Notes under the pieces: model-generated | Seen by the model: only the letters and a program-made list of their open reading frames with translations | Databases searched by the model: none | Told to the model about the DNA's origin: nothing | In this document: positions 2,722-23,153 of the stretch, piece after piece | Numbering within the stretch: position 1 is the stretch's first letter | Layout of the letters: each line of letters begins with the position of its first letter | Made by a program: the position numbers and the translations under genes | DNA from: a virus | Reading direction: 5' to 3' (one strand) | Length of the DNA stretch: 23,153 bases | Virus record (IMG/VR): IMGVR_UViG_3300042554_000022 | Span: 1-23,153 of that record

Positions 2722-3624
2722 CTAGCGGGTGTAGTGAATACGGATTGGATACTTGTCTGACAACTTCAACGCTTCTTCATTAAGACGCTGTTGATAGAGG
2801 GCAAAGATGTAACGAGAGGCTGCAGCTCCTGCAGATGATGGCAACTTAGAATCGTTTATATCGGCTTCAGCACTAGAGAGATTGATTCGCCCAGCGTCAA
2901 GGTAAGACAGTAGTTTGTATGCTGCGCCGAGTACGACAACATCCTTACAAGACTCAGGCAAGCCAGATACGTCAGCAAAATCATCTGTGTTTGCGTCAAG
3001 AGTATTGGGCGTGGCTGTATACCAAACTTGAATTGTACGACCAGGTTGTACGTTCTCATAGATGTTAAGTGTATTATTAGTATTGAAGGTAGCAGCGTTA
3101 GCCATACCATCTAAGCGCCAGCGATTTACTGGTAGCCATTCCTGGCTAGAGCCTGTGGTCTGCCAAGAGATAAAGAGTACGCCTTCGCAGTCATCAGGCA
3201 ATGGATATGTAGTCTGAGATGCGTTAAAGGTAAATGTGTAAGAGTTAATAATCCAGAGCTTAGGATAGAAACTGTTGATCGTATCGTTGATAGCCTTCTT
3301 AATAGAGTTACGTGGGAAGGTTGGAGATAGAGTCACTGGTGCATACTGTGAATGAGGCGATGCTGTAGTTCCTTGATATCCACGACCAAAGCCTGGGATA
3401 ACGTTCATTACGTTATTAGTTTTGTCGAAGGAATCAATCCACATCAGTTCATCATCAACTTCGATAATACCTTTGGCTAGGTTAGAAGATGAGCCAACGG
3501 TGATAGATGTGCTAGTAGTTGTTAAACCAGCAGGGTTAGCAACATAGGTAATACGGTCTTGGCGTAGTGCATAACCTTGTAGGTTAGCCTTTACCTCGTC
3601 TACCAGTTCGTTCAGTGTTGGCAT
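2722..3624 (-). CDS. Probable tail adaptor / tail-tube-associated structural protein
   Basis: This 300-residue protein starts at ATG 3624-3622 behind AAAGGAAA and overlaps the glycosyltransferase stop as TAATG. Residues ~25-100 hold a beta module ending GRGYQGTTASPHS, related in pattern to the N-terminus of the next protein. The C-terminal ~75 residues (from about ESCKDVVVLGAAYKLL) look helical, with a YQQRLNEEALKL segment resembling helices of phage head-tail adaptor or tail-tubular proteins. The placement at the head of the tail-appendage genes fits an adaptor role, but the assignment is from architecture only. A plain tail structural protein is the safe reading. Confidence 0.78.
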   Translation of the reverse strand: MPTLNELVDEVKANLQGYALRQDRITYVANPAGLTTTSTSITVGSSSNLAKGIIEVDDELMWIDSFDKTNNVMNVIPGFGRGYQGTTASPHSQYAPVTLSPTFPRNSIKKAINDTINSFYPKLWIINSYTFTFNASQTTYPLPDDCEGVLFISWQTTGSSQEWLPVNRWRLDGMANAATFNTNNTLNIYENVQPGRTIQVWYTATPNTLDANTDDFADVSGLPESCKDVVVLGAAYKLLSYLDAGRINLSSAEADINDSKLPSSAGAAASRYIFALYQQRLNEEALKLSDKYPIRIHYTR

Positions 3625-4685
3625 TATTTCCTTTCATACCAGCCATCTCCCCATAGTGTGAGAAGTCTTGCGAAGTATTGTTCATATTGTGGTGCGATAG
3701 CATCTAAGGAATACAGAGATACTGCTCGCTTGTGTATTGCTACTGGGTCTAACTCTTTAACCCACTCTGTTGCTGCTGCAAACTCCATTGCATTTCTGCA
3801 ACGGTATCCAGTAACACCATTAGGATTAGTTTCTGTGAATGCTCCCCAGTCTGTGGTAATCGTTGGAGTTCCACAGGTCTGTGCTTCGATAACTACATTT
3901 CCAAAAGGTTCTATGTAAAGCGTTGGTGCAAACAAGGCAGTAGCACCGCCCATTAACTTTGCTCGCTCTTCGGGACCAACTGGTCCTACCCATTCGCCAT
4001 ACTCAATCTTTGGGTCTTTACCAGGTCCTGCCATAATCAGCTTAAGGCCTAGTTCTTTTGACACGTGCTGGGCAATGACTAGACCTTTGCGATCTATCAT
4101 ACGTCCTACGTAGAGGTAGTAATCTTCCTTCTTCTCTTGCAATGGAAACATCTCAGGTTCTAAGTACCCTGGAATAACAGCATCATAGAAGTTGCCATCT
4201 ACTACTGTTGGGTTTCTAAACATTGCATAGATGCTGTGCATCCAAGCGTAGGATTCAAACACCTTGTACTTACTAAACACTCCACCGTAACCCACACCAA
4301 ACTCTACAGTTATGTGGTTTGGGTAAGCATCTGCTATTGGCTTCTGACTTGCTCCACCGATAATGCAGATAAAGTCTTTCTGCTCTAGCCTCTTGCCTAG
4401 TTCCTTAATGGCGTTACCATTAAAGATCTGCCAGTGAGGTAGTTCGTTATCAAAGGCTGCCTCTGTGAAGTGCTTACCAGCTAGAGCTTCTGCTTGTTGC
4501 TCTTTAGTAATGCAGGTAATTAGTTCATCTACTGGTGCTTCGTTATCCTCGCTGGCATAGAGATAGACCGTATGCCCAAGGTTCTTCATCATTATACAAA
4601 AGCGTCTAACCTTTTCGGTATAGGCGCAGTTAATGTAATCTTTAGTTGTTTGCGTATGGGGCAGGCTAATAACGTGGAATCTCAT
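3624..4685 (-). CDS. Phage-encoded GT-B glycosyltransferase (GT4-like)
   Basis: This 353-residue protein should transfer a sugar from a nucleotide-sugar donor to an acceptor. The C-terminal domain shows the classic GT-B retaining signature: LYVGRMIDRKG (R195, K200), LKLIMAGPG, and the E-x7-E motif EPFGNVVIE (E259, E267) followed by A-x-x-CGTPTIT. The N-terminal acceptor domain has HTQTTKDY near residue 10 and a nucleotide-binding-style IIGGAS near 108. The length is normal for the family and no key residue is missing. It lies 9 nt after a Thr-rich collagen-like gene and overlaps the next structural gene as TAATG, so it is co-expressed with virion proteins. I infer that it glycosylates a virion component; the acceptor is not shown by sequence. 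Host surface modification is the alternative. Confidence 0.92.
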   Translation of the reverse strand: MRFHVISLPHTQTTKDYINCAYTEKVRRFCIMMKNLGHTVYLYASEDNEAPVDELITCITKEQQAEALAGKHFTEAAFDNELPHWQIFNGNAIKELGKRLEQKDFICIIGGASQKPIADAYPNHITVEFGVGYGGVFSKYKVFESYAWMHSIYAMFRNPTVVDGNFYDAVIPGYLEPEMFPLQEKKEDYYLYVGRMIDRKGLVIAQHVSKELGLKLIMAGPGKDPKIEYGEWVGPVGPEERAKLMGGATALFAPTLYIEPFGNVVIEAQTCGTPTITTDWGAFTETNPNGVTGYRCRNAMEFAAATEWVKELDPVAIHKRAVSLYSLDAIAPQYEQYFARLLTLWGDGWYERK

Positions 4686-5937: not shown

Positions 5938-5941
<4 letters not shown>

Positions 5942-6222
5942 GATGACACCGCTCTGAGAGCTTGCGCTGCAGGTAGTTGAAAAGTACCAGCGATGAGGTT
6001 ACATACGCCATTGTAATCAAGACGATTATCGCTAGACGTACCCGCAATCGCATTTAGAACTCCTACTGTGTCTGTTAAGTTTGTTGATACTGAACGCGCC
6101 ACAGCCCATTGACGAGCTGCTTGTGCTTGGTCAACCATCTCACCTGGTGCTCGATAGGTGCCACCATTAGCTAGACGATTCAGTTCATCTAATAGTGTTG
6201 TACCGTATTGTCCTAGTGCCAC
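5938..6222 (-). CDS. Small phage protein of unknown function (GTG start)
   Basis: This 94-residue protein starts at GTG 6222-6220, supported by GAGGT about 6 nt upstream. I do not recognise a named family. It looks helical (LLDELNRLANGG, MVDQAQAARQWAV, AAQALRAV), with a conserved-looking DYNGVCNLIAG near residue 70. The DNA at its C-terminus (AGAGCGGTGTCATCTTGA) closely resembles that of the next gene (GGAGCGGTGACAACTTGA). It sits between the basic micro-proteins and the fibre genes, and the TTGA overlap suggests coupled translation with the Ig-like protein. A virion component or assembly factor is possible but not shown. Confidence 0.82.
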
Positions 6223-6231
6223 CTATTTACC

Positions 6232-6396
6232 TCACTTCTTCTTTTTACGAGATGCTGCTGCGTTATCTACTAGATTTGGATAAGGTCTTCCTGCTGCCCT
6301 AGCCCTTGCTTTCGCCGCAGTCTTTTGTGCTGGCGTTAATTTCTTTGACTTCTCTTTAGGATTTTTCTTATCCCAAAATGCTGCTTTCTTTTTCAT
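6232..6396 (-). CDS. 54-aa Lys/Ala-rich micro-protein
   Basis: An ATG at 6396-6394 opens a 54-residue frame: MKKKAAFWDKKNPKEKSK, then KLTPAQKTAAKARA and AAGRPYPNLVDNAAASRKKKK, ending at TGA 6234-6232. The start overlaps the upstream stop as ATGA, so it is translationally coupled. The block AGRPYPNLVDN is one I recall from small basic proteins in other phages, supporting a real gene although it is below common length cut-offs. It is strongly basic and may bind nucleic acid or be packed in the virion; that is inference only. Confidence 0.85.
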   Translation of the reverse strand: MKKKAAFWDKKNPKEKSKKLTPAQKTAAKARARAAGRPYPNLVDNAAASRKKKK

Positions 6397-6671
6397 TTGC
6401 AACTACAATCCCAAGCACGTAATGACTTGTTTATTCTTGAATTCGGATCTTTAGCTGTCTTACTAGAAGTGTTTTTGGCCTTCATCCCACACATACGACC
6501 ACAGAAAGACTTACGTCTTGCTGCAGACTTAGGAGATTTAGCAGCCTCAGCCTTCTTAACTGGAGGCTTGAGATTCATACCTGCAGCCTTGGCAGAGGCA
6601 CGACCTTTTGCGTTCAGGCCACCCTTTGGGTTCTTACCTGCTGCTCTCTGCCACGCTGGAGACTTTGCCAT
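6393..6671 (-). CDS. DUF6321-like basic phage protein
   Basis: This 92-residue protein begins MAKSPAWQRAAGKNPKGGLN, has RRKSFCGRMCGM in the middle and ends KTAKDPNSRINKSLRAWDCSCK. The N-terminal AWQR-x-x-GxNPxGGLN, the SFCxRM and the DPxSRINKSLRxW motifs match my recollection of the DUF6321 family, common in large and environmental phages. Its function is unknown. Four cysteines (57, 61, 89, 91) could bind a metal; the C-terminal C-x-C also ends the 21-aa protein nearby. The start at ATG 6671-6669 overlaps the upstream stop as TAATG. Confidence 0.88.
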   Translation of the reverse strand: MAKSPAWQRAAGKNPKGGLNAKGRASAKAAGMNLKPPVKKAEAAKSPKSAARRKSFCGRMCGMKAKNTSSKTAKDPNSRINKSLRAWDCSCK

Positions 6672-6844
6672 TACTTCTTCTTACCCATTCTTTTCTTAGT
6701 CATCTTTGCTTGAGACATTGCAATAGCAACCGCTTGTTTGCGGTTTGTAACTACTGGACCTGTGCTAGATCCTGAGTTCAAAGTACCAGACTTAAACTCT
6801 TTCATTACCTTAGCAACTTTCTTTTTCTTAGCTGCCTTCTTCAT
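6671..6844 (-). CDS. DUF6496-like 57-aa basic protein
   Basis: A 57-residue frame from ATG 6844-6842 to TAA 6673-6671: MKKAAKKKKVAKVMKEFKSG, then TLNSGSSTGPVVTNRKQAVA, then IAMSQAK and a Lys-rich tail. The pattern KVMxEFKxGxLxSGS followed by VxNRKQAxAIAxSxA is characteristic of the DUF6496 family of short phage and bacterial proteins, whose function is not established. Both ends are TAATG junctions, so it is coupled to both neighbours. The high Lys content suggests binding to nucleic acid or to an acidic partner (inference). Confidence 0.88.
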   Translation of the reverse strand: MKKAAKKKKVAKVMKEFKSGTLNSGSSTGPVVTNRKQAVAIAMSQAKMTKKRMGKKK

Positions 6845-6909
6845 TAGCACTTACACGCTTTGTCTGACTTACCGCACTTGCGGCACTTACCAGGTTTTCT
6901 GACTGCCAT
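6844..6909 (-). CDS. 21-aa cysteine micro-protein (zinc-knuckle-like)
   Basis: ATG 6909-6907 to TAA 6846-6844 encodes only 21 residues, MAVRKPGKCRKCGKSDKACKC. Cysteines at 9, 12, 19 and 21 form C-x2-C-x6-C-x-C, which could coordinate one zinc ion. The ATG follows directly after the upstream stop (TAA ATG), GGGAAAGG lies about 11 nt upstream, and its stop forms TAATG with the next gene. That exact fit into the operon, the regular Cys spacing and the absence of room for anything else argue that it is translated. The length leaves some doubt. Confidence 0.66.
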   Translation of the reverse strand: MAVRKPGKCRKCGKSDKACKC

Positions 6910-7062
6910 TTACTTTGCTGCCTTTCCCATTGCACCTGTCTGAAGTGATTCATATGATGAATACTTTGATGCGTTTGGGTATTGCTTGTCTGGAGTTGGA
7001 TAAGGCATTAGATCTTCTTCTAAGCCCATATCATCCATCTTGCCGTTTTCTGAATTCTTCAT
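6910..7062 (-). CDS. 50-aa small phage protein
   Basis: ATG 7062-7060 to TAA 6912-6910 encodes 50 residues: MKNSENGKMDDMGLEEDLMP, then YPTPDKQYPNASKYSSYESL and QTGAMGKAAK. Unlike its neighbours it is acidic at the N-terminus and rich in Tyr, Ser and Pro in the middle. Its ATG overlaps the upstream stop as TAATG and its stop abuts the next ATG. I do not recognise a family. The placement within a coupled micro-ORF series is the main evidence; the function is unknown. Confidence 0.75.
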   Translation of the reverse strand: MKNSENGKMDDMGLEEDLMPYPTPDKQYPNASKYSSYESLQTGAMGKAAK

Positions 7063-7193
7063 TACTTCTTCTTCCCCATCTTCTTCATAACCTTCTTGGC
7101 TGCTACTTTCTTACCAGTCTTCTTAGCCTTGGCCATAGCTGCTGCCTTGCCCTTTGCTGTGTATGGAAATTCTGTTCCGCCTACCATTGGCAT
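7062..7193 (-). CDS. 43-aa Lys-rich micro-protein
   Basis: ATG 7193-7191 has a canonical AAGGAG six bases upstream (7200-7205), the best ribosome binding site in this small-gene series. It encodes 43 residues: MPMVGGTEFPYTAKGKAAAM, then AKAKKTGKKVAAKKVMKKMG and KKK, ending at TAA 7064-7062 (TAATG with the next gene). The KMGKKK end resembles the end of the 57-aa protein (RMGKKK). The GGTEFPYTxxGxAAA start is a pattern I associate with short phage proteins. It is very basic; binding to packaged DNA is a guess. Confidence 0.82.
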   Translation of the reverse strand: MPMVGGTEFPYTAKGKAAAMAKAKKTGKKVAAKKVMKKMGKKK

Positions 7194-7203
7194 AATATGC
7201 TCC

Positions 7204-7476
7204 TTAGTCTTTGAATGTCATTGAGATACCATCGAAGGCTTTACCAGCCTCGTTGGAAAGTTGTACTGCTGCATCTATATCTTTACTCTTTGTTGAACGT
7301 GGCTCTATGCCCTGTCTTGTAGCATCGTAGTAGGACTGTAGTTCCTTATCGTGCTGCTTAGCAGTAGGTATACCCTTGTGATTAGCCATACCTACGCTCA
7401 ACTCTAGTTCGCCTATCTTGCAACCAAAGCATCCTTCGACGTACTCTGGATGCGTTGTGCGTCTATGTAAACTCAT
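7204..7476 (-). CDS. Small CxxC phage protein
   Basis: The protein is 90 residues when started at ATG 7476-7474, which overlaps the upstream stop as ATGA. A longer frame from TTG 7491 would add only five residues and has no better signal. Residues ~3-22 show HRRTTHPEYVEGCFGCKIG, with a His-rich lead and C-x2-C suggesting a small metal site. The rest is polar and helical (KQHDKELQSYYDATRQG; AAVQLSNEAGKAFDG). I recall similar HPxYVxGCFGCK proteins in phages, always unnamed. The function is unknown. Confidence 0.84.
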   Translation of the reverse strand: MSLHRRTTHPEYVEGCFGCKIGELELSVGMANHKGIPTAKQHDKELQSYYDATRQGIEPRSTKSKDIDAAVQLSNEAGKAFDGISMTFKD

Positions 7477-7796
7477 ACTGGAGTTAACCAACTTCCATAT
7501 CCTGCAGCGGTAAGTACTGCTGCTTGCTGATCTCCAATGACGTACTCGTGACCACCGAGGAAGTAGTAGTCACAAGCTGCCAAGTCATCTTGGCTTGGAG
7601 TCATATTGATAACAACATTGTTACCAGTTACTAGCAATGATTGTCCACGTGGAATATCTGTAAGGCTTGGTGCAATAGGTCCATCAATAGTTCCGCCAAC
7701 AAGACGACGACCTGCAAGACGTGAGTATGGAGTGAACTCGTTATACCCTGCGCCCCAGGTTTGCCACTGGTACGGAGTTGTTAATGTGTATGGCAT
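7473..7796 (-). CDS. Small phage structural protein next to the capsid gene
   Basis: The protein is 107 residues from ATG 7796-7794. AGGAAAGG (7803-7810) lies 6 nt upstream of this ATG, which decides it over a TTG two codons earlier that would touch the ribosome binding site. The protein is rich in Tyr, Gly and Pro, with TPYQWQTWGAGYNEF, LAGRRLVGGTIDGPIAP, IPRGQSLLVTGNNV and a C-terminal YVIGDQQAAVLTAAGYGSW. It is the first gene after the major capsid gene, a position often held by head-decoration, head-completion or adaptor proteins. I do not recognise the family, so that role is inference. Confidence 0.85.
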   Translation of the reverse strand: MPYTLTTPYQWQTWGAGYNEFTPYSRLAGRRLVGGTIDGPIAPSLTDIPRGQSLLVTGNNVVINMTPSQDDLAACDYYFLGGHEYVIGDQQAAVLTAAGYGSWLTPV

Positions 7797-7802
7797 ATCC
7801 AA

Positions 7803-7810: not shown

Positions 7811-7817
7811 AAGTGAC

Positions 7818-7841
7818 AGAGGGCGGGTTTCCCCACCCCCT
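7818..7841 (-). terminator. GC-rich hairpin with GAAA loop after the capsid gene
   Basis: On the transcribed strand the arm AGGGGGTGGG, the loop GAAA and the arm CCCGCCCTCT form a 10-bp stem (two G-T wobbles, the rest Watson-Crick) closed by a GNRA tetraloop. It begins 18 nt after the capsid stop codon and ends 7 nt before the next ribosome binding site. No U-tract follows, so full intrinsic termination is doubtful. An attenuator, mRNA-stabilising or processing element that raises capsid over downstream expression is likelier. Confidence 0.6.
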
Positions 7842-7859
7842 GCCGAGCAATAACGGGAA

Positions 7860-9044
7860 TTATCCGTTTGTTGCTGCTGACTCAATGCGATAGAGAGCAG
7901 CTTCACGAAGGCGAGCAAAGCCTCCGAAGTAGTACCAACCGATTGTGCGGAAACGACGTAGAGCGTCGATCTCTGGACCGATAACGGTTGAGATATCTGC
8001 TGCCTGTGCTTCAGCCAATGCTTCACGACCTGCGACGATTGCGCGGTAGTTGTTGGTGAATGTAACTGTACCTGTTGCTGCAACAGATGAAACTGTCTGA
8101 GCAAGAGCGTACTTGATTGTTGAACCTGTTGTACCAGAGATGGTTGTGAAGGTTCCGTTGAACAACGCGTTAGATGAAGCAATTGTAACAACCTGTCCAA
8201 CTCCAACACCGTGTGCTGTAGATGTAGTGATTGTTGCGTTAGTTCCATCTGCAGCAACGTTAGTGATTGCTGTACCAACTGTTGTTGAGATAAGGCCGTT
8301 TGACTGTACAGCACCATTTAGGACACGTGGTGTCTCAACGATGAATGCACCTTCGATTACGCCTACTGCACCAGCAACGAACGGTGTACGCTCAACGTAC
8401 TTTGTTAGCTCCTGGAATCCACCTGTACCAGTTTCAGCGCGAAGATCGGCTGACTGACGTGGGTGTAGGTATGCAGCATATAGTTCGCCCATACGAGGCA
8501 ATGCCTTGTTTGTGCGAAGTGATACTACAGCGTTGCGGATATCTGCAACTGTCATTGTATCTACAGGTAGAACACCTGAAGATGATGTTGGTGCAGAACC
8601 TGATGGACCGTTTGAGTAGATCACGTTAGTTCCTGCTGAGAGGACCTGACCTACAACGTTATCAATAGAGTCTGCTGCGTTGTATGCGATGATGTCAGCA
8701 AGAGCTGAGTCAACATCGTTGAATGAAGTTAGGTTTAACTTCTTTGTTGTTGTTACTGCTGAACCGTATTCGTTCAGAGTTACTGTAACCTGTGATGGGT
8801 TACCTAGTGCAATGCTTGATACATCTGATGCTTCGCTCAATGTAGAAGTAGCTTGTGCCAAATCTGAGTAGATTGAGAAAACAACTGATGATCCTGGCAT
8901 AGCCTGTTGTACTGGCTTCACGTCAGCAAGTGAACGCATAACAGGAATGGAACGTAGTGCCATTCTTACATACTGATCGTATGCTGTTCGTACGAGGTTG
9001 CTGATTTCGGAGGTGCCAGTGGGGGTACCTTGTGGTACTGCCAT
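7860..9044 (-). CDS. Major capsid protein (HK97-fold, N4 gp56-like) with Ig-like insert
   Basis: This 394-residue protein starts at ATG 9044-9042 behind AAAGG. It should form the icosahedral shell. The scaffold-like gene immediately upstream, the length, and motifs typical of N4-gp56/P22-type coat proteins support this: LPRMGELYAAYLHPRQSADLR (181-202), the PFVAGAVGVIEGAFIVETPR stretch (221-240) and a C-terminal IGWYYFGG...LREAALYRIES. Residues ~254-330 look like an extra beta domain inserted before NNYRAIVAGREAL, with the ITTSTAHGVGVGQVVTI pattern seen in phage surface Ig-like domains. It is followed by a strong hairpin. The assignment as capsid is firm; the subfamily is by eye. Confidence 0.9.
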   Translation of the reverse strand: MAVPQGTPTGTSEISNLVRTAYDQYVRMALRSIPVMRSLADVKPVQQAMPGSSVVFSIYSDLAQATSTLSEASDVSSIALGNPSQVTVTLNEYGSAVTTTKKLNLTSFNDVDSALADIIAYNAADSIDNVVGQVLSAGTNVIYSNGPSGSAPTSSSGVLPVDTMTVADIRNAVVSLRTNKALPRMGELYAAYLHPRQSADLRAETGTGGFQELTKYVERTPFVAGAVGVIEGAFIVETPRVLNGAVQSNGLISTTVGTAITNVAADGTNATITTSTAHGVGVGQVVTIASSNALFNGTFTTISGTTGSTIKYALAQTVSSVAATGTVTFTNNYRAIVAGREALAEAQAADISTVIGPEIDALRRFRTIGWYYFGGFARLREAALYRIESAATNG

Positions 9045-14035: not shown

Positions 14036-17000
14036 TTAGTTCTCCCTCAAGAAGTTGCTAAACAGAACAGTAAAGACTGAACTAGCATTTGGATTTGTTT
14101 GTGCAATTGCTTTTAATTGTGCAAGTGTTGACTCACGAATTACATCTCGTGCCTTAACGTCGCGCTCACTGCGTGAGTTATAGACATTGTCCTTGGCGTT
14201 GAGATACTCTTCATAGATACCAACCATTCTACGAATAGAGTTAGTAGCTGGATTGCTAACTTGTGTTTCGTTCAACATACGCTTTAGATCATCATATGCA
14301 GCCATACGCTTGACATTATTACCAGCAGAATCTGCAAACTCTTGCTGTAGTAATGGACGTGTAGCCTTGAATTCCTTTGACCAGGCATCCCAAACATCGT
14401 TGATGCGAGCACGTTCTGAGTCAGTTGCTGCTGATGTTAGAGCTTGCTCGTAACGATCACGCTCTTGGTAGAAGAAGTACTTAGACTTAGCAACCATTGT
14501 CTCCTGTAGGAAGTCACCAACGAGTTTATTCTCGCGGTAGCCATTGTCCTTGAGGAACTGGTATGCCTCCCAGCTAAAGGTTCCACTCTGTGGAATCAAG
14601 AAAGCTGCACCTTCTGGATATGCCTTGATGAGATCTTGGTTGCCATCAACCCAGTTTGCTGCTGCGTTGCTTGTCTTAAAGTTTGCTTGGAATACAGGGT
14701 CTGATTCGTTAAGAACATATGGAACCTGGTTTGGAAACAGCTTAGTCCAGTCAGCCATAGCTCTGCCGACAGGATCTGTAGTACCGCTGTACTCTTCAAT
14801 GAGCTTTGAGAATACCTGCTTGAAGTTAACGCGACCATTCTCACGAACCCACTCAGCCATATCTGACTTGAGCGATGTTGTTGGTGATGCTGGTGCAATA
14901 AAGCCTAGAGCAAAGCGTGTCAATAGAACACCACTGATAGTTGCACGTAGTTGCTTCTGATACTCAGCTAGTTCACCAGGAGTTGCTGTTGCAGATGGGG
15001 TATGCCCACCTGCTTCTAGGTATGTAACTGCCTTACGGTATGCAGATGCGTACTGTGAGTCGCGTTCATCCTTATCTAGCGCTGTTAACAAACGGTTAAC
15101 GTGACCAGGTAAAGCTGCTTGGAAGATAGATTGATTTTCTCCAATAGAACCAAGTGTGTACTGCTCTGTTGCCTTTACTTCCTTGGCAAGCATTGAAAGA
15201 ATTGGGATATCTGACTCAGAGAATAAACCTGCTGTGTTATAGATAACCTTAAGTGACACACCAGCGATTGGACCGCTAAATGTTGGTAGCCAAGACTCTG
15301 TGTTTGCAGATGGTGTCAGCATTCGGATTGAAGATCCGAACTGCAATGGCATTGGAGAGACGAACTTATCGCCTAGTCCAAAGACACTTAGTGACTTGTT
15401 AACTGCTGCATAGACAGGGGCTACACCTGGATAGATGAAGTATGGCTCGCCTTGGTCATCGCGTTGTACAAAACCTGTGTGTGTTACACCTTCATAAGTC
15501 AGTGCAAGTTTACGCAAAGCCTCTGGATTGTAACGAACCGTACGATATAGACGACGGTAAGCATCTTCAGTAGCACGATAGAAACGTGCAAAGTTACGCA
15601 TAGACCAAGCCATCTGTGTACGAACATCTGGGTTATCCACGAATGCTAGTACGCGCTCAACGCCTAACTTCTCTGACATCTCAACTACACGACGAGTTGC
15701 CTCTTCTTTACCAACCTTAGCTGTTAGATCTTCTAAGTATGGTTGTAGCTCCTTGCGGATATTAAAGGCTGCGTCAAGAACAATTTGGTCACGTGACATA
15801 CGTGCATTGGCATCTCCCAGCCAATCCCATACGCGGGTATTAAGGTCTGAAATAATGTTTGCAGATTGTGTCGCTGGAATAAAGCGTGGACCTGTGATTG
15901 ATTGAGGCAAGTCTGCACGTTTGGTTGGAAGCCAGTCAAGAGAAAAGTCATCTAACTTAGTAGCAAGGTCTCCCGCTTCATCTGCCTGAACAATCTTGCC
16001 TAGTAGTTCATCATTGATAGAACCATCTGCTCGTCCAAACAAAGCCTTAAGGTCATCAAAGATAACGCCTGCGTGTTGAGTAGATGTGTATGTCTCATCA
16101 ATGTAGCGATCAAAACTTTGTTTGTGCTTAGGCAATACCCGTGTATCAATATGCTTAGATAGCGCTGCAACGAATGCACCACGGTCATTACCGTACTGCT
16201 TGAGCAGTTTCATACCCTCTGAGCCGATTTCATCACTGCCTTTGGCCACAATCTGGAACGCCCAAGCGAGCTTTCCTTCTTGATCCACTGGGCTTAGCTG
16301 TACGAAAGAGCCATATTGACGGGCATAGTCTTCACCATCAATTGAGAAGTCAACTACTCTGCCCTGCTTACGGCTTACTTTAGTAGCACGTGAGAAGAAA
16401 TCGTTACCAGCGTTAAGGTTATATGCACCTTCGCTAGCAGACTTGAGTAGGTTCTCGAAGTCTCCGTGCATAGCAAACTCATATGTAAACTGGTCAAAGT
16501 CTTTGCCAAAGTTACCAATTTGTGCGTCATCAAACTTATCGCGTAGCAATACCTCAGCAAGCAACTTGCGCTTTGCCAGTTCTTTCTCTGCAGAGTTCTT
16601 GAAAGCACCTACTGTTATGATTTCATTGCCATCAACAACTTCGCGCTTAACGCCATTTTGAATATCTTTGAACTTGCCTAGGATTAGTTCTTTATCTTTG
16701 CCTTTTGCATAGCGATTGAACATACCTAGTGCTAAATCATCTTCAGTCATACGAATCTTTGTAGCAAGACGACGAGATCTCACTACAGATCCAACAGACT
16801 TGATAGCACCCTTGCCATTAGATAGATAGAAAAGGTAATCTTCCAAAGCATTACGTACTGGGAAACGTGGACCTGCTAAAGTACCTGTAACGAATGTGCT
16901 AATAGCATCATCTGCTGCCTTTGAGTACTGAGCGCCCCATAGTTTTGCTAGGTATCCATCACGTGCTGCGAAACGATCTAGTTGCTGTGGGGTAATAAAG

Positions 17001-18793
17001 GCAGAACGGTCATTGAGTTGGTAAACATAAGCTGCTGAATCAAAGCCATCAATCTGTGATGGGATAATTCCATCAGGATTAGCGTCATCAAACACACGAT
17101 TGGTGTAAACAGCGTCACGTCCTACAGTTCCTAGCGTCTCTAGGAGCCTGCGACCACCTGCTACACCACGAAGTCCACGTAATTCGCCTACTGCAGACTG
17201 TAAACCTGTAAACATCTCACGACGTTGAGCAATATTACCTGCTTGGTAGGCATCACCAAGCTGACGTGCTGCGTAACGACCATAGATAAAACGTGCATAA
17301 CGCTCAAATGCGATATGAGCCTTTGGAGATGCGTGGTTTCCAAGCTCTGCCATATCAGGAATTAATGCAAACTTGCGAGTGATGTTATCTAAACGCTTGT
17401 TAATACCGAATACAGAAAACTTATTGTTATATTTTTCTTCAGATGCAGTCAAACGTCCAGCGGTACGGATACCTGCTTCGATAGCAGTCTCTCCTGGACG
17501 ACCAGCAAGTGACTCAATAGCAGCTTGTTGTACACTAACGCCACGAATATCTGCCTCATCAAAGACGATATTGCGTAGAAAGTTTGTACCATCTTCGTCA
17601 AGATTAAATTTACTATCTACTTTTGTGTAAGTATCAATTACTTTGCGACGAGCAGGACTTAAACGTGGCATAACCTTGATTTGAAATCCTGGCTGTCCGT
17701 AGAATAAAGGTTCAATACGCTCTGCACTTGATAGAAATGCCTTGGCTGTATTAGCATCAAGGATGCCACCGAAGTCTTGGTCAGCAAACTTGATAAGTTC
17801 GCTATCTACTCCATTGGGTCCAAAGGCTGGATTCAAACGACGAAGTCGTCCGATACTACCTGCAACATCTTCACCAGCACGACGTGCATCACGATACTCA
17901 GATAAAGTTTTTGTGTAATCATCCCAGAAACGAACAACGCCAGGATTAGTAAAAGCATTTTCTACTTTTTCTGCTGTACCAACTGTCTTAGATAAGGCAA
18001 ACTTAGATGCTTGGTATGCTTTACTAGCCTTACCAAGAAGAAGTGTTGGGTCTGCGATGATACGAAAAGCTGCATCTGTTGAACCTGAGATCCAAGTGTA
18101 TAAACCACTTTTACCTTCAAGGTCTTTTGGAAGAAAAGCGTTAGCAAGTTGACGACCTGGTGAGTACTTAGCAGCGTTAACCTTTGCTACTACCTCATCC
18201 ATCAACTTGTCTCCTTCAGGCTGTGCTGCCTTAGAGACTAATAACTTTTGGTTGTCGTTTTGTGCTGTAGCAAGAATCTTATCTAAAGGTATTCCAGATG
18301 AAATCTGTTGTGCAACGTATACGTAATCTTTACCGTATGTAGACATTGCCTTTTCAATACGACCTGGATTAAAAGCCATTTCGCCATTAGCGCCAGACTT
18401 CTTCCAAGCCTCTGCAAGATCTACTCCTTGAGTAGCCGAAATAGCACCAGCACGATAGGTGCGTGTTACTTGGTCTGATGCCCAGTTAGCTGCATTAAAT
18501 ACAGCCTTAATTGGTTCTACAATTGGACGTGAAATAATATAAGCAGTTTGACCAATCCATCCACGACGTGGAGACTGGTCATCTTCGCCACCGAAGAATT
18601 CTGCCATCTTCTTTTGCTTCTCAGGATTCATTTGAGAAAACTGATAAGCACCTACCTGTGCAGGTAGATTGGAAAGTTGTACGTGTGTTGAGTACATATC
18701 AGACAAAGCATTGATCTGATTCTTTTGAGATGCGTTAAGCCCAGCCTGCTGTGCAGCCTGGTAAATGTTTCCTTTATTAAGGTTCTGACCCAT
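14036..18793 (-). CDS. Giant 1585-aa virion protein, probable internal/ejection protein
   Basis: The start at ATG 18793-18791 overlaps the upstream stop (TAATG) with GAGGAC upstream. This is the largest gene in the window. It is mostly helical. Recognisable landmarks are SPGRQLANAFLP...SGSTDAAFRIIADP (211-249), GPRFPVRNALEDYLFY (641-656) and RNFARFYRATEDAYRRLYR (1066-1084), followed by a beta-rich DDQGEPYFIYPG. I associate these motifs with very large virion proteins of actinobacterial and environmental phages. No polymerase, protease, lysozyme or transglycosylase signature was found by eye. It could be an ejection protein lining the DNA path, or act in place of a tape measure, as no tape-measure gene is in the window. 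Both readings are inference. Confidence 0.88.
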   Translation of the reverse strand: MGQNLNKGNIYQAAQQAGLNASQKNQINALSDMYSTHVQLSNLPAQVGAYQFSQMNPEKQKKMAEFFGGEDDQSPRRGWIGQTAYIISRPIVEPIKAVFNAANWASDQVTRTYRAGAISATQGVDLAEAWKKSGANGEMAFNPGRIEKAMSTYGKDYVYVAQQISSGIPLDKILATAQNDNQKLLVSKAAQPEGDKLMDEVVAKVNAAKYSPGRQLANAFLPKDLEGKSGLYTWISGSTDAAFRIIADPTLLLGKASKAYQASKFALSKTVGTAEKVENAFTNPGVVRFWDDYTKTLSEYRDARRAGEDVAGSIGRLRRLNPAFGPNGVDSELIKFADQDFGGILDANTAKAFLSSAERIEPLFYGQPGFQIKVMPRLSPARRKVIDTYTKVDSKFNLDEDGTNFLRNIVFDEADIRGVSVQQAAIESLAGRPGETAIEAGIRTAGRLTASEEKYNNKFSVFGINKRLDNITRKFALIPDMAELGNHASPKAHIAFERYARFIYGRYAARQLGDAYQAGNIAQRREMFTGLQSAVGELRGLRGVAGGRRLLETLGTVGRDAVYTNRVFDDANPDGIIPSQIDGFDSAAYVYQLNDRSAFITPQQLDRFAARDGYLAKLWGAQYSKAADDAISTFVTGTLAGPRFPVRNALEDYLFYLSNGKGAIKSVGSVVRSRRLATKIRMTEDDLALGMFNRYAKGKDKELILGKFKDIQNGVKREVVDGNEIITVGAFKNSAEKELAKRKLLAEVLLRDKFDDAQIGNFGKDFDQFTYEFAMHGDFENLLKSASEGAYNLNAGNDFFSRATKVSRKQGRVVDFSIDGEDYARQYGSFVQLSPVDQEGKLAWAFQIVAKGSDEIGSEGMKLLKQYGNDRGAFVAALSKHIDTRVLPKHKQSFDRYIDETYTSTQHAGVIFDDLKALFGRADGSINDELLGKIVQADEAGDLATKLDDFSLDWLPTKRADLPQSITGPRFIPATQSANIISDLNTRVWDWLGDANARMSRDQIVLDAAFNIRKELQPYLEDLTAKVGKEEATRRVVEMSEKLGVERVLAFVDNPDVRTQMAWSMRNFARFYRATEDAYRRLYRTVRYNPEALRKLALTYEGVTHTGFVQRDDQGEPYFIYPGVAPVYAAVNKSLSVFGLGDKFVSPMPLQFGSSIRMLTPSANTESWLPTFSGPIAGVSLKVIYNTAGLFSESDIPILSMLAKEVKATEQYTLGSIGENQSIFQAALPGHVNRLLTALDKDERDSQYASAYRKAVTYLEAGGHTPSATATPGELAEYQKQLRATISGVLLTRFALGFIAPASPTTSLKSDMAEWVRENGRVNFKQVFSKLIEEYSGTTDPVGRAMADWTKLFPNQVPYVLNESDPVFQANFKTSNAAANWVDGNQDLIKAYPEGAAFLIPQSGTFSWEAYQFLKDNGYRENKLVGDFLQETMVAKSKYFFYQERDRYEQALTSAATDSERARINDVWDAWSKEFKATRPLLQQEFADSAGNNVKRMAAYDDLKRMLNETQVSNPATNSIRRMVGIYEEYLNAKDNVYNSRSERDVKARDVIRESTLAQLKAIAQTNPNASSVFTVLFSNFLREN

Positions 18794-21355: not shown

Positions 21356-21778
21356 TTACTTAGTCTTCTTCTTAACTTGTTGCTTAGACTTAGCAACAGT
21401 TTTTGGCTGAGAACTAATCATCGATCCAGAAACGCGTGGTGTGGTAGAAGCAGTGCCAGTAATTTTTGTCTTTGGCATTTGCTTCATTTTTTCATTTTTC
21501 TTACTTGCTGCAGTTCCACCTGTAGTAGCCTTAAGCATTCTTGCTTCGGCTGCTTTCTTTTCTGCACGTGCTACTGAACCCTTAGCGCGAGCAAGAGCGC
21601 GTGACTGGTCTAGTACACGGCGTGGGTTAATTACGTTTCCTGCTGCTTCTTGTTCTCTTGGCGTTAGACGAGCAGGCTTTGCTAGTGCAGAAGCAATGCG
21701 TTGTGACTTGCCAGTTGTATTTTGTGTTAGAAACAACTTACGTTCCATAGCGCTAAGTTTTGAACGTGATGATGCCAT
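21356..21778 (-). CDS. Lys/Ala-rich basic protein between terminase and portal
   Basis: The protein is 140 residues from ATG 21778-21776, chosen because AAGGAG (21785-21790) sits six bases upstream; an ATG at 21829 would add 17 residues inside the terminase coding end and has no such site. Residues 1-60 (SAMERKLFLTQNTTGKSQRI, LTPREQEAAGNVINPRRVL) are partly ordered. Residues 60-90 are an Ala/Arg/Lys helix and the rest is a Lys/Thr/Ser-rich tail ending KKKTK. It is strongly basic, so DNA or RNA binding is plausible. A small terminase subunit normally lies before the large one, so I do not call it that. Confidence 0.82.
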   Translation of the reverse strand: MASSRSKLSAMERKLFLTQNTTGKSQRIASALAKPARLTPREQEAAGNVINPRRVLDQSRALARAKGSVARAEKKAAEARMLKATTGGTAASKKNEKMKQMPKTKITGTASTTPRVSGSMISSQPKTVAKSKQQVKKKTK

Positions 21779-21784
21779 TATTAT

Positions 21785-21790
21785 CTCCTT
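21785..21790 (-). promoter_or_regulatory. Ribosome binding site that fixes the 21778 start
   Basis: Read on the minus strand this is AAGGAG, six bases before the ATG at 21778. It overlaps nothing but the two bases before the terminase stop, and it argues against the upstream ATG at 21829. Confidence 0.75.
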
Positions 21791-21791
21791 A

Positions 21792-23153
21792 TTAGATGAA
21801 TGTACGATCTTTTTCTGCGAGCAATTCATCTATATTGATAACTGTTCGCTTACCCTGTTCATAACGAGACAGGAATGGATTTTTCATATGGTGGGTAGCG
21901 TGGATACCTTGGTTGAGCATCTCACGTGCGCGGATCTCACAGAACCACAGCGCCATCACCATATCTGTTTTACCCTTAGTCGTTGGGGACCAGGTAATTA
22001 ACTGCTCAATCATTGCCTTAATGTTTTCCGTTTGGTCACTAGGCATATGAATTAAATTGTCGCGGTGGTGCTTTCCATCGTGTTGCTTGGTGCCAAACAA
22101 TGTTGACATAGACGCAACACCGAAACCCGAGTCCCACTTGTTGTTACCCGTGTGATGCTCTCGCAGTAACACGCCTCTGGATGCAAGGTTGGCACGGATG
22201 CCTTCGTCTTGCGTAAGGAATGATTGAAACGCATTCTTCTCCACGATCCATTCACTAGGACTATAGAGGGTAGTCCAGTCAAAAATTAACTGACGTATCT
22301 GAGCAGGCGTTGGCCTAGTGATTTTAATAGCATCCACGATATAACGTTTGTGACTAACGCGATCAACAGCGTAACAAACGGCGGCTGTATCACCAACCAT
22401 AGCGGGATCAAGACCACAAATAAAAGAAAAGCCATTAACATCACGCGGATGGCCTGGGTGACCAGGAACCAAACGACCTGCTTTACGCATACCATCTATA
22501 GAACCTCTCACACATACTGGGTCAAAGATGGCATCATCTGAAATATCTTGCTGCTGGTAGACCAGCGCCCAAGTAGATGCGTCCATAGCTTGACGTTCGT
22601 TGTAGAGGTTACGTCCATTCCATCTAGGATAGAGGCCGTCCTCATTCAAATCTGATTCTTCTTGCCCATCAAATGGAGCATCCGATGCTGGCCAGAGGGT
22701 AACCCACTTGTCAGGGTCCTCATCTGTCTCCAGCAAAGCTGGCATCGCTAGGTACTTCCAAGGAACTAAGCCACCTGGATAGCGGTCTGGGTTACGCAGC
22801 TCTCTATAAAGGTCAACTGCTGCCACACGGGTTCCAATGATAATTAATTTACCAGTAGGGTTCAGACGAGAACGTACGTCCTGGGTCAACCACTTGATCT
22901 GGCGTTCAAACTCATTGGCGTTTTTGAGAGTAACCGCGTCATCCACGATAATCATATCGGCACGTTTACCGTAGATCTGACCACCGATACCAACGGCCTC
23001 GATATTCGGGTCCTTTTCAGAGGACTCACGAAGCTCATCACCAAAGGTGATACGGGTCGCCTGCCAGGAGGCAGACTTAGAGTTAAACCCTACGCCAGCA
23101 GCATAAGCATTTTGAAGGTTCTCATACATTGGGTGAGTCAAACGCTGCTTGAT
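21792..23153 (-). CDS. terL: Terminase large subunit (5' end outside window)
   Basis: The frame is open to the right edge and 453 residues are visible. It is the ATP-driven DNA packaging motor and headful or end-cutting nuclease. Seen in the protein: Walker B ADMIIVDDAV (visible residues 65-74), the coupling motif KLIIIGTR (102-109), then the RuvC/RNase H-like nuclease domain with its three acidic positions in FICGLDPA (D249), WIVEKNAF (E305) and KTDMVMALW (D397). The ATPase Walker A is missing because it lies beyond the edge, not because it is lost. The stop is at 21794-21792. The next gene's ribosome binding site follows immediately. Identification is firm. Confidence 0.95.
   Translation of the reverse strand: MKQRLTHPMYENLQNAYAAGVGFNSKSASWQATRITFGDELRESSEKDPNIEAVGIGGQIYGKRADMIIVDDAVTLKNANEFERQIKWLTQDVRSRLNPTGKLIIIGTRVAAVDLYRELRNPDRYPGGLVPWKYLAMPALLETDEDPDKWVTLWPASDAPFDGQEESDLNEDGLYPRWNGRNLYNERQAMDASTWALVYQQQDISDDAIFDPVCVRGSIDGMRKAGRLVPGHPGHPRDVNGFSFICGLDPAMVGDTAAVCYAVDRVSHKRYIVDAIKITRPTPAQIRQLIFDWTTLYSPSEWIVEKNAFQSFLTQDEGIRANLASRGVLLREHHTGNNKWDSGFGVASMSTLFGTKQHDGKHHRDNLIHMPSDQTENIKAMIEQLITWSPTTKGKTDMVMALWFCEIRAREMLNQGIHATHHMKNPFLSRYEQGKRTVINIDELLAEKDRTFI

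Follow-up and report, generated by a model that had tools for sequence, protein, structure and literature searches.

A constant, modular micro-ORF cassette linked to the capsid gene in an IMG/VR virus record and related loci

Six coupled ORFs of 43, 50, 21, 57, 92 and 54 aa (in order of transcription) form a cassette of 962 nt (7193-6232, minus strand) behind the capsid gene (MCP) of the IMG/VR record IMGVR_UViG_3300042554_000022. This virus record of 23,153 bases, called the window here in its full length, has its genes on the minus strand and probably stems from an uncultured freshwater phage. The six ORFs are genuine genes, and the constant, capsid-linked and modular cassette that they form appears to be undescribed in the literature searched. 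Tentatively, and at a little short of even confidence, I favour reading it as a late micro-operon of modular make-up, whose small, mostly basic products would be linked to the head and would probably bind nucleic acid. A capsid-linked locus with a near-constant core is a concrete place to ask about the role of these families.

Layout of the cassette

The ORFs are tightly coupled: the 43/50, 21/57 and 57/92 junctions are TAATG with a 1-nt overlap, stop and start codons abut directly between the 50- and 21-aa ORFs, and the 92/54 junction is an ATGA with a 4-nt overlap. The first-pass annotation had listed the same six lengths, extent and junction types, all of which proved correct, and a blind ORF-chaining script run on the window returned exactly these six ORFs. 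The ATG of A43 is preceded by an SD-like AAGGAG, and a scan for sigma-70 promoters gave fewer hits than in shuffled sequence. The cassette had also been described as basic, which stands for five of the six ORFs as judged by their net charges (Table 1), but the 50-mer is acidic and is moreover the most constant member; this, the modularity and the hairpin behind MCP had escaped the first-pass annotation. Cysteines are found in the 21-mer and the 92-mer, four in each.

Table 1. Features of the cassette and of its surroundings in the window
Feature	Position	Strand	Description
MCP	7860..9044	-	phrog_1357 (2.6e-71); anchor of the synteny analysis
13-bp G+C-rich hairpin	7815..7844	-	follows the MCP stop codon and precedes V109, U95 and the cassette
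V109	7473..7802	-	phrog_8987; between MCP and cassette; 73/73 loci
U95	7204..7491	-	phrog_10483; left border of the interval; homologue in Streptomyces phages
A43 (43-aa ORF)	7062..7193	-	basic, net +13; ends KKMGKKK
B50 (50-aa ORF)	6910..7062	-	acidic, net -2; core motif [ST]YE.(L/I/V).TGA.G (alignment)
C21 (21-aa ORF)	6844..6909	-	net +7; C-x2-C-x6-C-x-C
D57 (57-aa ORF)	6671..6844	-	DUF6496; net +17; ends KRMGKKK
E92 (92-aa ORF)	6393..6671	-	DUF6321; net +21
F54 (54-aa ORF)	6232..6396	-	net +16; motif LTPAQK..AKARA.AAGRPYPNLVDN
G94	5938..6222	-	phrog_27452 (2.4e-29); right border of the interval; 73/73 loci by selection

In most relatives both A43 and DUF6496 end in MGKKK right before the next start, and the Lys-rich tails might on this account serve the mRNA, with ATG GGN AAG AAG AAG TA(A/G) supplying the following ORF with a purine-rich ribosome site. 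I regard this as highly improbable. F54 is the last gene and has no close ORF behind it, yet it has the most basic tail of all, with a mean of 3.8 K/R in the last five residues versus 2.2. The share of AAG in the tails (74%) is only slightly above that for internal Lys (67%), and SD matches are weak at the coupled starts other than that of A43, so that the explanation of the MGKKK tails as ribosome sites is weakened.

Upstream of the cassette, the window encodes a terminase, a portal, several large proteins, a scaffold-like protein, MCP, V109 and U95, and downstream of it follow G94, H113, a collagen-like tail fibre, a glycosyltransferase and a 300-aa protein. With scaffold-like, MCP, tail fibre, portal and terminase genes at its flanks, the cassette does lie within the virion gene block, where it had been placed from the first. 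Two further proteins of the window were noted: a 157-aa Lys-rich protein between terminase and portal (21356-21829, minus strand) has no Pfam or PHROG match, and a 1585-aa protein in the virion block (14036-18793, minus strand) has no PHROG match.

Coding density and selection

Related loci were fetched by their MCP and not by the cassette genes, which gave 81 loci including the window, 73 of them with both U95 and G94. In these 73 loci the interval from U95 to G94 is 97% coding on the cassette strand, versus 33% for the opposite strand and 43% after shuffling of the sequence, and the two commonest junction offsets (n = 427) are -1 (138 junctions) and -4 (75 junctions). Pooled over 16 related sequences, dN/dS was measured for 13 genes and came to 0.26 for the 43-mer, 0.145 for the 50-mer, 0.17 for the 57-mer, 0.064 for the 92-mer and 0.11 for the 54-mer, next to 0.136 for MCP; the 21-mer was too rare in the 16-sequence set for an estimate. 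The DUF6321 value of the 92-mer is the lowest of the 13 genes and lies below that of MCP. Frequent frameshifts among relatives, named in the first-pass annotation as what would speak against the ORFs, were not seen. I count the purifying selection, tighter on DUF6321 than on MCP, in favour of the late micro-operon. Because the lowest dN/dS of all 13 genes, MCP included, belongs to DUF6321, the strongest conservation within a virion operon can evidently fall on genes of 21-60 aa, which gene callers easily skip.

Conservation and modularity of the cassette

The gene order MCP-V109-U95-cassette-G94 is fixed in the 73 MCP-anchored loci, which bears out the early suggestion of a conserved gene order next to the capsid gene, and together with the coding density and the junction offsets this fixed address speaks for the late micro-operon. 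The content of the cassette varies, with 27 arrangements in the 73 loci. Clustering found B50 in 73/73, DUF6321 in 72/73, the 54-mer in 66/73, DUF6496 in 50/73, A43-like genes in 49/73 and the 21-mer, always at the same position, in 15/73. The members nearly always follow the order A43-B50-C21-DUF6496-DUF6321-54-mer; L261 and L264 have DUF6321 in first place. DUF6321, the acidic B50 and F54 are thus a near-constant core, and A43, C21, DUF6496 and others are optional. Since membership is partly optional, an essential structural role for each member is unlikely.

Such varying membership is also that of accessory genes, and the cassette could accordingly encode small regulators of the late phase with RNA or ribosomes as their targets, or factors for host takeover, which would act inside the cell and stay out of the virion. 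Very small, basic proteins would suit this role, as would the Cys-x2-Cys motifs of the 21-mer; nevertheless, the fixed place in the virion block away from the early genes, the constant core and the virion evidence for DUF6321 carriers (see below) make it clearly unlikely. Peptides of an anti-host, antimicrobial or counter-defence kind that are delivered along with the DNA are a still poorer match. They could well be cationic micro-proteins with accessory members swapped beside a conserved core, but selection on DUF6321 is strongly purifying (dN/dS 0.064) and not diversifying, and none of the six ORFs matched a PADLOC-DB family at an E-value limit of 0.1, which is weak evidence against a counter-defence role because that library covers defence and not anti-defence. 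I consider such peptides very unlikely.

HNH-like genes have entered the cassette in some loci. In L250 an HNH-like gene (8221-8682) interrupts DUF6321 at codon 7; the part of DUF6321 behind it has gained a new ribosome site and a TTG start, which would give a near-normal N-terminus, MASAWQR versus MAKSPAWQR. In L231 (2517-2954) and L232 (8476-8913) an HNH-like gene stands behind the 54-mer, whose end is new and rich in Lys; the tail known from the 54-mer of relatives is found at the end of the HNH ORF in L232. An Rfam search of the HNH-bearing loci and of the window gave no intron. The survival of the reading frames argues that both products, DUF6321 and the 54-mer with its basic tail, are worth keeping, and the harmlessness of the inserted HNH element argues in the same direction. 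I count the regeneration of a full-length-like product at these interruptions in favour of the late micro-operon.

In L109 the reading frame of a proteasome-like protein (3258-3965; PF00227, 1.5e-6) continues into A43 without a stop, and L108, L118, L126 and L130 have a similar arrangement.

A conserved hairpin behind the capsid gene

The hairpin behind the MCP stop codon folds at -29.4 kcal/mol in the window (z -3.0), and a stable fold at this place, of -23.7 to -34.9 kcal/mol, is shared by all 72 loci examined, versus a median of -12.7 for segments within the cassette. In an alignment that took in hairpins of one length only (18 distinct sequences of the main type), 12 of 12 pairs are kept and 7 have changed on both sides, compared with 0-2 in slid controls. 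No T run follows, and the hairpin is therefore not a textbook terminator; the phage Abafar likewise has an annotated terminator just after MCP. The hairpin may stabilise the MCP message, it may thin out transcription downstream, or it may lower or protect the downstream message. The cassette would be read from the same late transcript as MCP, behind the hairpin, and ribosomes would move from ORF to ORF by reinitiating at the overlapping stop and start codons.

Protein families and predicted folds

The first-pass annotation had suspected DUF6321 and DUF6496 among the six ORFs, and both exceed the Pfam gathering scores. The 92-mer is DUF6321 (PF19846; 72.9 bits versus a gathering score of 28.5, E 3.5e-20, model 1-72 of 72) and the 57-mer is DUF6496 (PF20106; 37.8 bits versus 24, E 2.5e-9, model 7-58 of 58). 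Both families are known by name and uncharacterised, and no paper naming either was found in the literature searched. The 54-mer belongs to phrog_34011 (E 1.7e-26, profile 1-54 of 55), the 43-mer matches phrog_33179 (E 5.6e-5) and the 92-mer also matches phrog_4689; the PHROGs entries of these three give neither a function nor the cassette. Assignment of the 54-mer to DUF3072 (PF11272) was rejected at 13.8 bits, under the gathering score of 27.5. B50 has no match in Pfam, PHROG or NCBIfam, and the 21-mer has none in the family libraries searched, Pfam and PHROG among them. The 21-mer was also rejected as a CCHC zinc knuckle (C-x2-C-x4-H-x4-C), as its Cys are spaced otherwise (Table 1) and it has no His.

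The AF2 model of DUF6321 is all helical (pLDDT 87, pTM 0.69), and that of DUF6496 consists of two helices and a hairpin (pLDDT 81, pTM 0.60). A fold search of the PDB with both models gave no usable or informative match and no DNA-binding fold, which I list against the late micro-operon, and sequence profiles of the two families found no solved relative. In a viral structure library good E-values were obtained only to DUF6321 proteins, as expected of homologues. Lys-rich composition alone is no demonstration of DNA binding.

Relatives and distribution of the families

By MCP and the 300-aa protein, the nearest cultured relatives are Streptomyces phages, whose MCPs are 46-49% identical over 59% of the length. 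The Streptomyces Beephvirinae FlowerPower and Manuel, and also Abafar, have MCP, the 300-aa gene, a scaffold-like gene and a U95 homologue in common with the window, but they show no match to a cassette family, and their annotation lists no series of micro-ORFs from MCP to the 300-aa gene. In ct2KA10, a record without annotation, the interval from U95 to G94 holds DUF6496 along with other micro-ORFs. An actinobacterial host is hinted at by the related contig L180, which was placed in the bin of an Actinomycetota MAG, the binning of viral contigs being weak evidence. Compared by DNA, close isolate phages gave short matches only, most of them in DUF6321. A tblastn search of phage records with the 54- and 43-mers found nothing, although a more sensitive search placed the 54-mer family in MinM2.

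DUF6321 itself is widespread, with tblastn hits in at least 458 phage records out of the 50,697 searched. It follows terS in S-P4, lies between terS and terL in S-P4-like, P-HM1, S-CREM1, S-CREM2 and S-SCSM1 cyanophages, is the second gene after the capsid gene in HTVC115P, stands three genes before TerL in MEP402 and in HTVC033P belongs to a series of small ORFs that precede an amidase, whereas in P-SSM4 and S-SSM7 it is located elsewhere. Contig L096 has the order TerL-F54-DUF6321-DUF6496-portal. The presence of DUF6321 in late modules of independent phages counts for the late micro-operon. Its form differs between phages: most of the cyanophages seen carry it as one domain in a protein of 233-994 aa, often between terS and terL, and the cyanomyovirus T4-GC119 proteins carry the same domain as the cassette 92-mer at their C-terminus, whereas in the window it is free-standing, 92 aa long and behind MCP in a podovirus-like genome. 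S-CREM1 has a free-standing DUF6321 91-mer.

DUF6496 is found on bacterial chromosomes as well, at a distance from phage genes, whereas here it is always in the capsid-linked cassette, and I count the chromosomal members against a role in the head or virion. One DUF6496 gene (L182, 5971-6153) was seen on a 150-kb Flavobacterium contig with apparent housekeeping genes around it.

A broader reading would be an exchangeable kit of virion-borne, nucleic-acid-binding micro-proteins that spans aquatic phages and coats or delivers phage DNA in the manner of protamines or nucleoid proteins. The kit would stand behind the capsid or terminase genes of unrelated podovirus-like phages, T4-like cyanophages and pelagiphages, and it would include an acidic partner, B50, and Cys-rich members of 21-32 aa. 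I consider this reading unlikely.

Virion evidence and possible roles

The main support for a place in the head comes from cyanophage proteins that carry DUF6321. S-CREM2 gp137 (108049-109521, 490 aa), which has DUF6321 at residues 415-488 (3.5e-10), was identified through 4 unique peptides (4.1% coverage) in the proteome of virions purified on CsCl, and terL is absent from the same virion protein list (PMC10665884 Table 3). S-SCSM1_29 (42662-44215, 517 aa) ends in DUF6321 (3e-22) and is labelled a virion protein in its record. I take this label to mark proteins detected by MS, although the text of the paper, which reports 45 such virion proteins, does not say so (PMC9602691). In S-SCSM1 a 69-aa DUF3008 protein of similar basic make-up is also labelled a virion protein, so a small basic protein can stand on that list. 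The S-CREM2 and S-SCSM1 proteins are carriers and analogues and not the window's own proteins. Against a head or virion role I count that the evidence comes from proteins of considerable size (490 and 517 aa) in which DUF6321 takes up just the end, that it consists of 4 peptides only in S-CREM2 and of a record label only in S-SCSM1, and that T4-GC119, the cyanophage family, was still called hypothetical in a 2010 study with virion proteomics (PMC3037559).

Among the three roles proposed in the first-pass annotation (DNA-condensing virion proteins, RNA-binding regulators and anti-host peptides), the virion one gains most, by way of the DUF6321 carriers of S-CREM2 and S-SCSM1. Protamine-like and internal head proteins of DNA viruses are small or cationic and are thought to condense genome DNA. 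The ascovirus protein P64 is a protamine-like example to which this role is ascribed (PMC6163548). The cassette proteins share the small size or cationic character of such proteins, with no sequence relation to them seen. In the late micro-operon that I favour, the products would most likely be minor virion proteins of the head interior that bind packaged DNA, or else cofactors of head filling; the window proteins would thus be expected to bind nucleic acid and to be carried in the virion, and they may divide the labour between them.

Head-assembly or packaging cofactors that are absent from the mature virion, e.g. chaperones of the portal, terminase or capsid, are an alternative, with the basic proteins binding DNA during packaging. 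Several unrelated phages have cassette families next to TerL, portal or MCP, and the acidic B50, present in every locus, is a possible counterpart of the basic proteins. The detection of a DUF6321-bearing protein in purified S-CREM2 virions, in a list without terL, is at odds with this, and I regard such cofactors as possible but on the unlikely side.

Cysteine-containing members

Cys columns 57/88 and 61/90 of DUF6321 covary over 118 rows (57+88 alone in 90, all four in 19, none in 7 and a shifted pattern in 2). On the tree these amount to no more than 3-5 independent changes (p 0.25 or 1 in a sign test), and one of the Cys-less rows, P-SSM4, may be an alignment fault, so that a disulfide or metal pairing in DUF6321 is suggestive only. 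A 32-aa Cys-rich protein (MCAKC.CKCK...) follows DUF6321 in L193, L215, L226 and L252. It is found in 4/7 loci with a Cys-less DUF6321 versus 0/65 others, counts that ignore kinship, and the idea that it stands in for the missing Cys of DUF6321 is therefore kept as a remark only. C21 homologues are 21-23 aa long and keep the four Cys. Finally, a Cys version of B50, MC.xCGCGYATYDD(I/L)(E/Q)TGA, was found in 41 viral contigs (L346-L386), where it mostly adjoins DUF6321 and MCP relatives.
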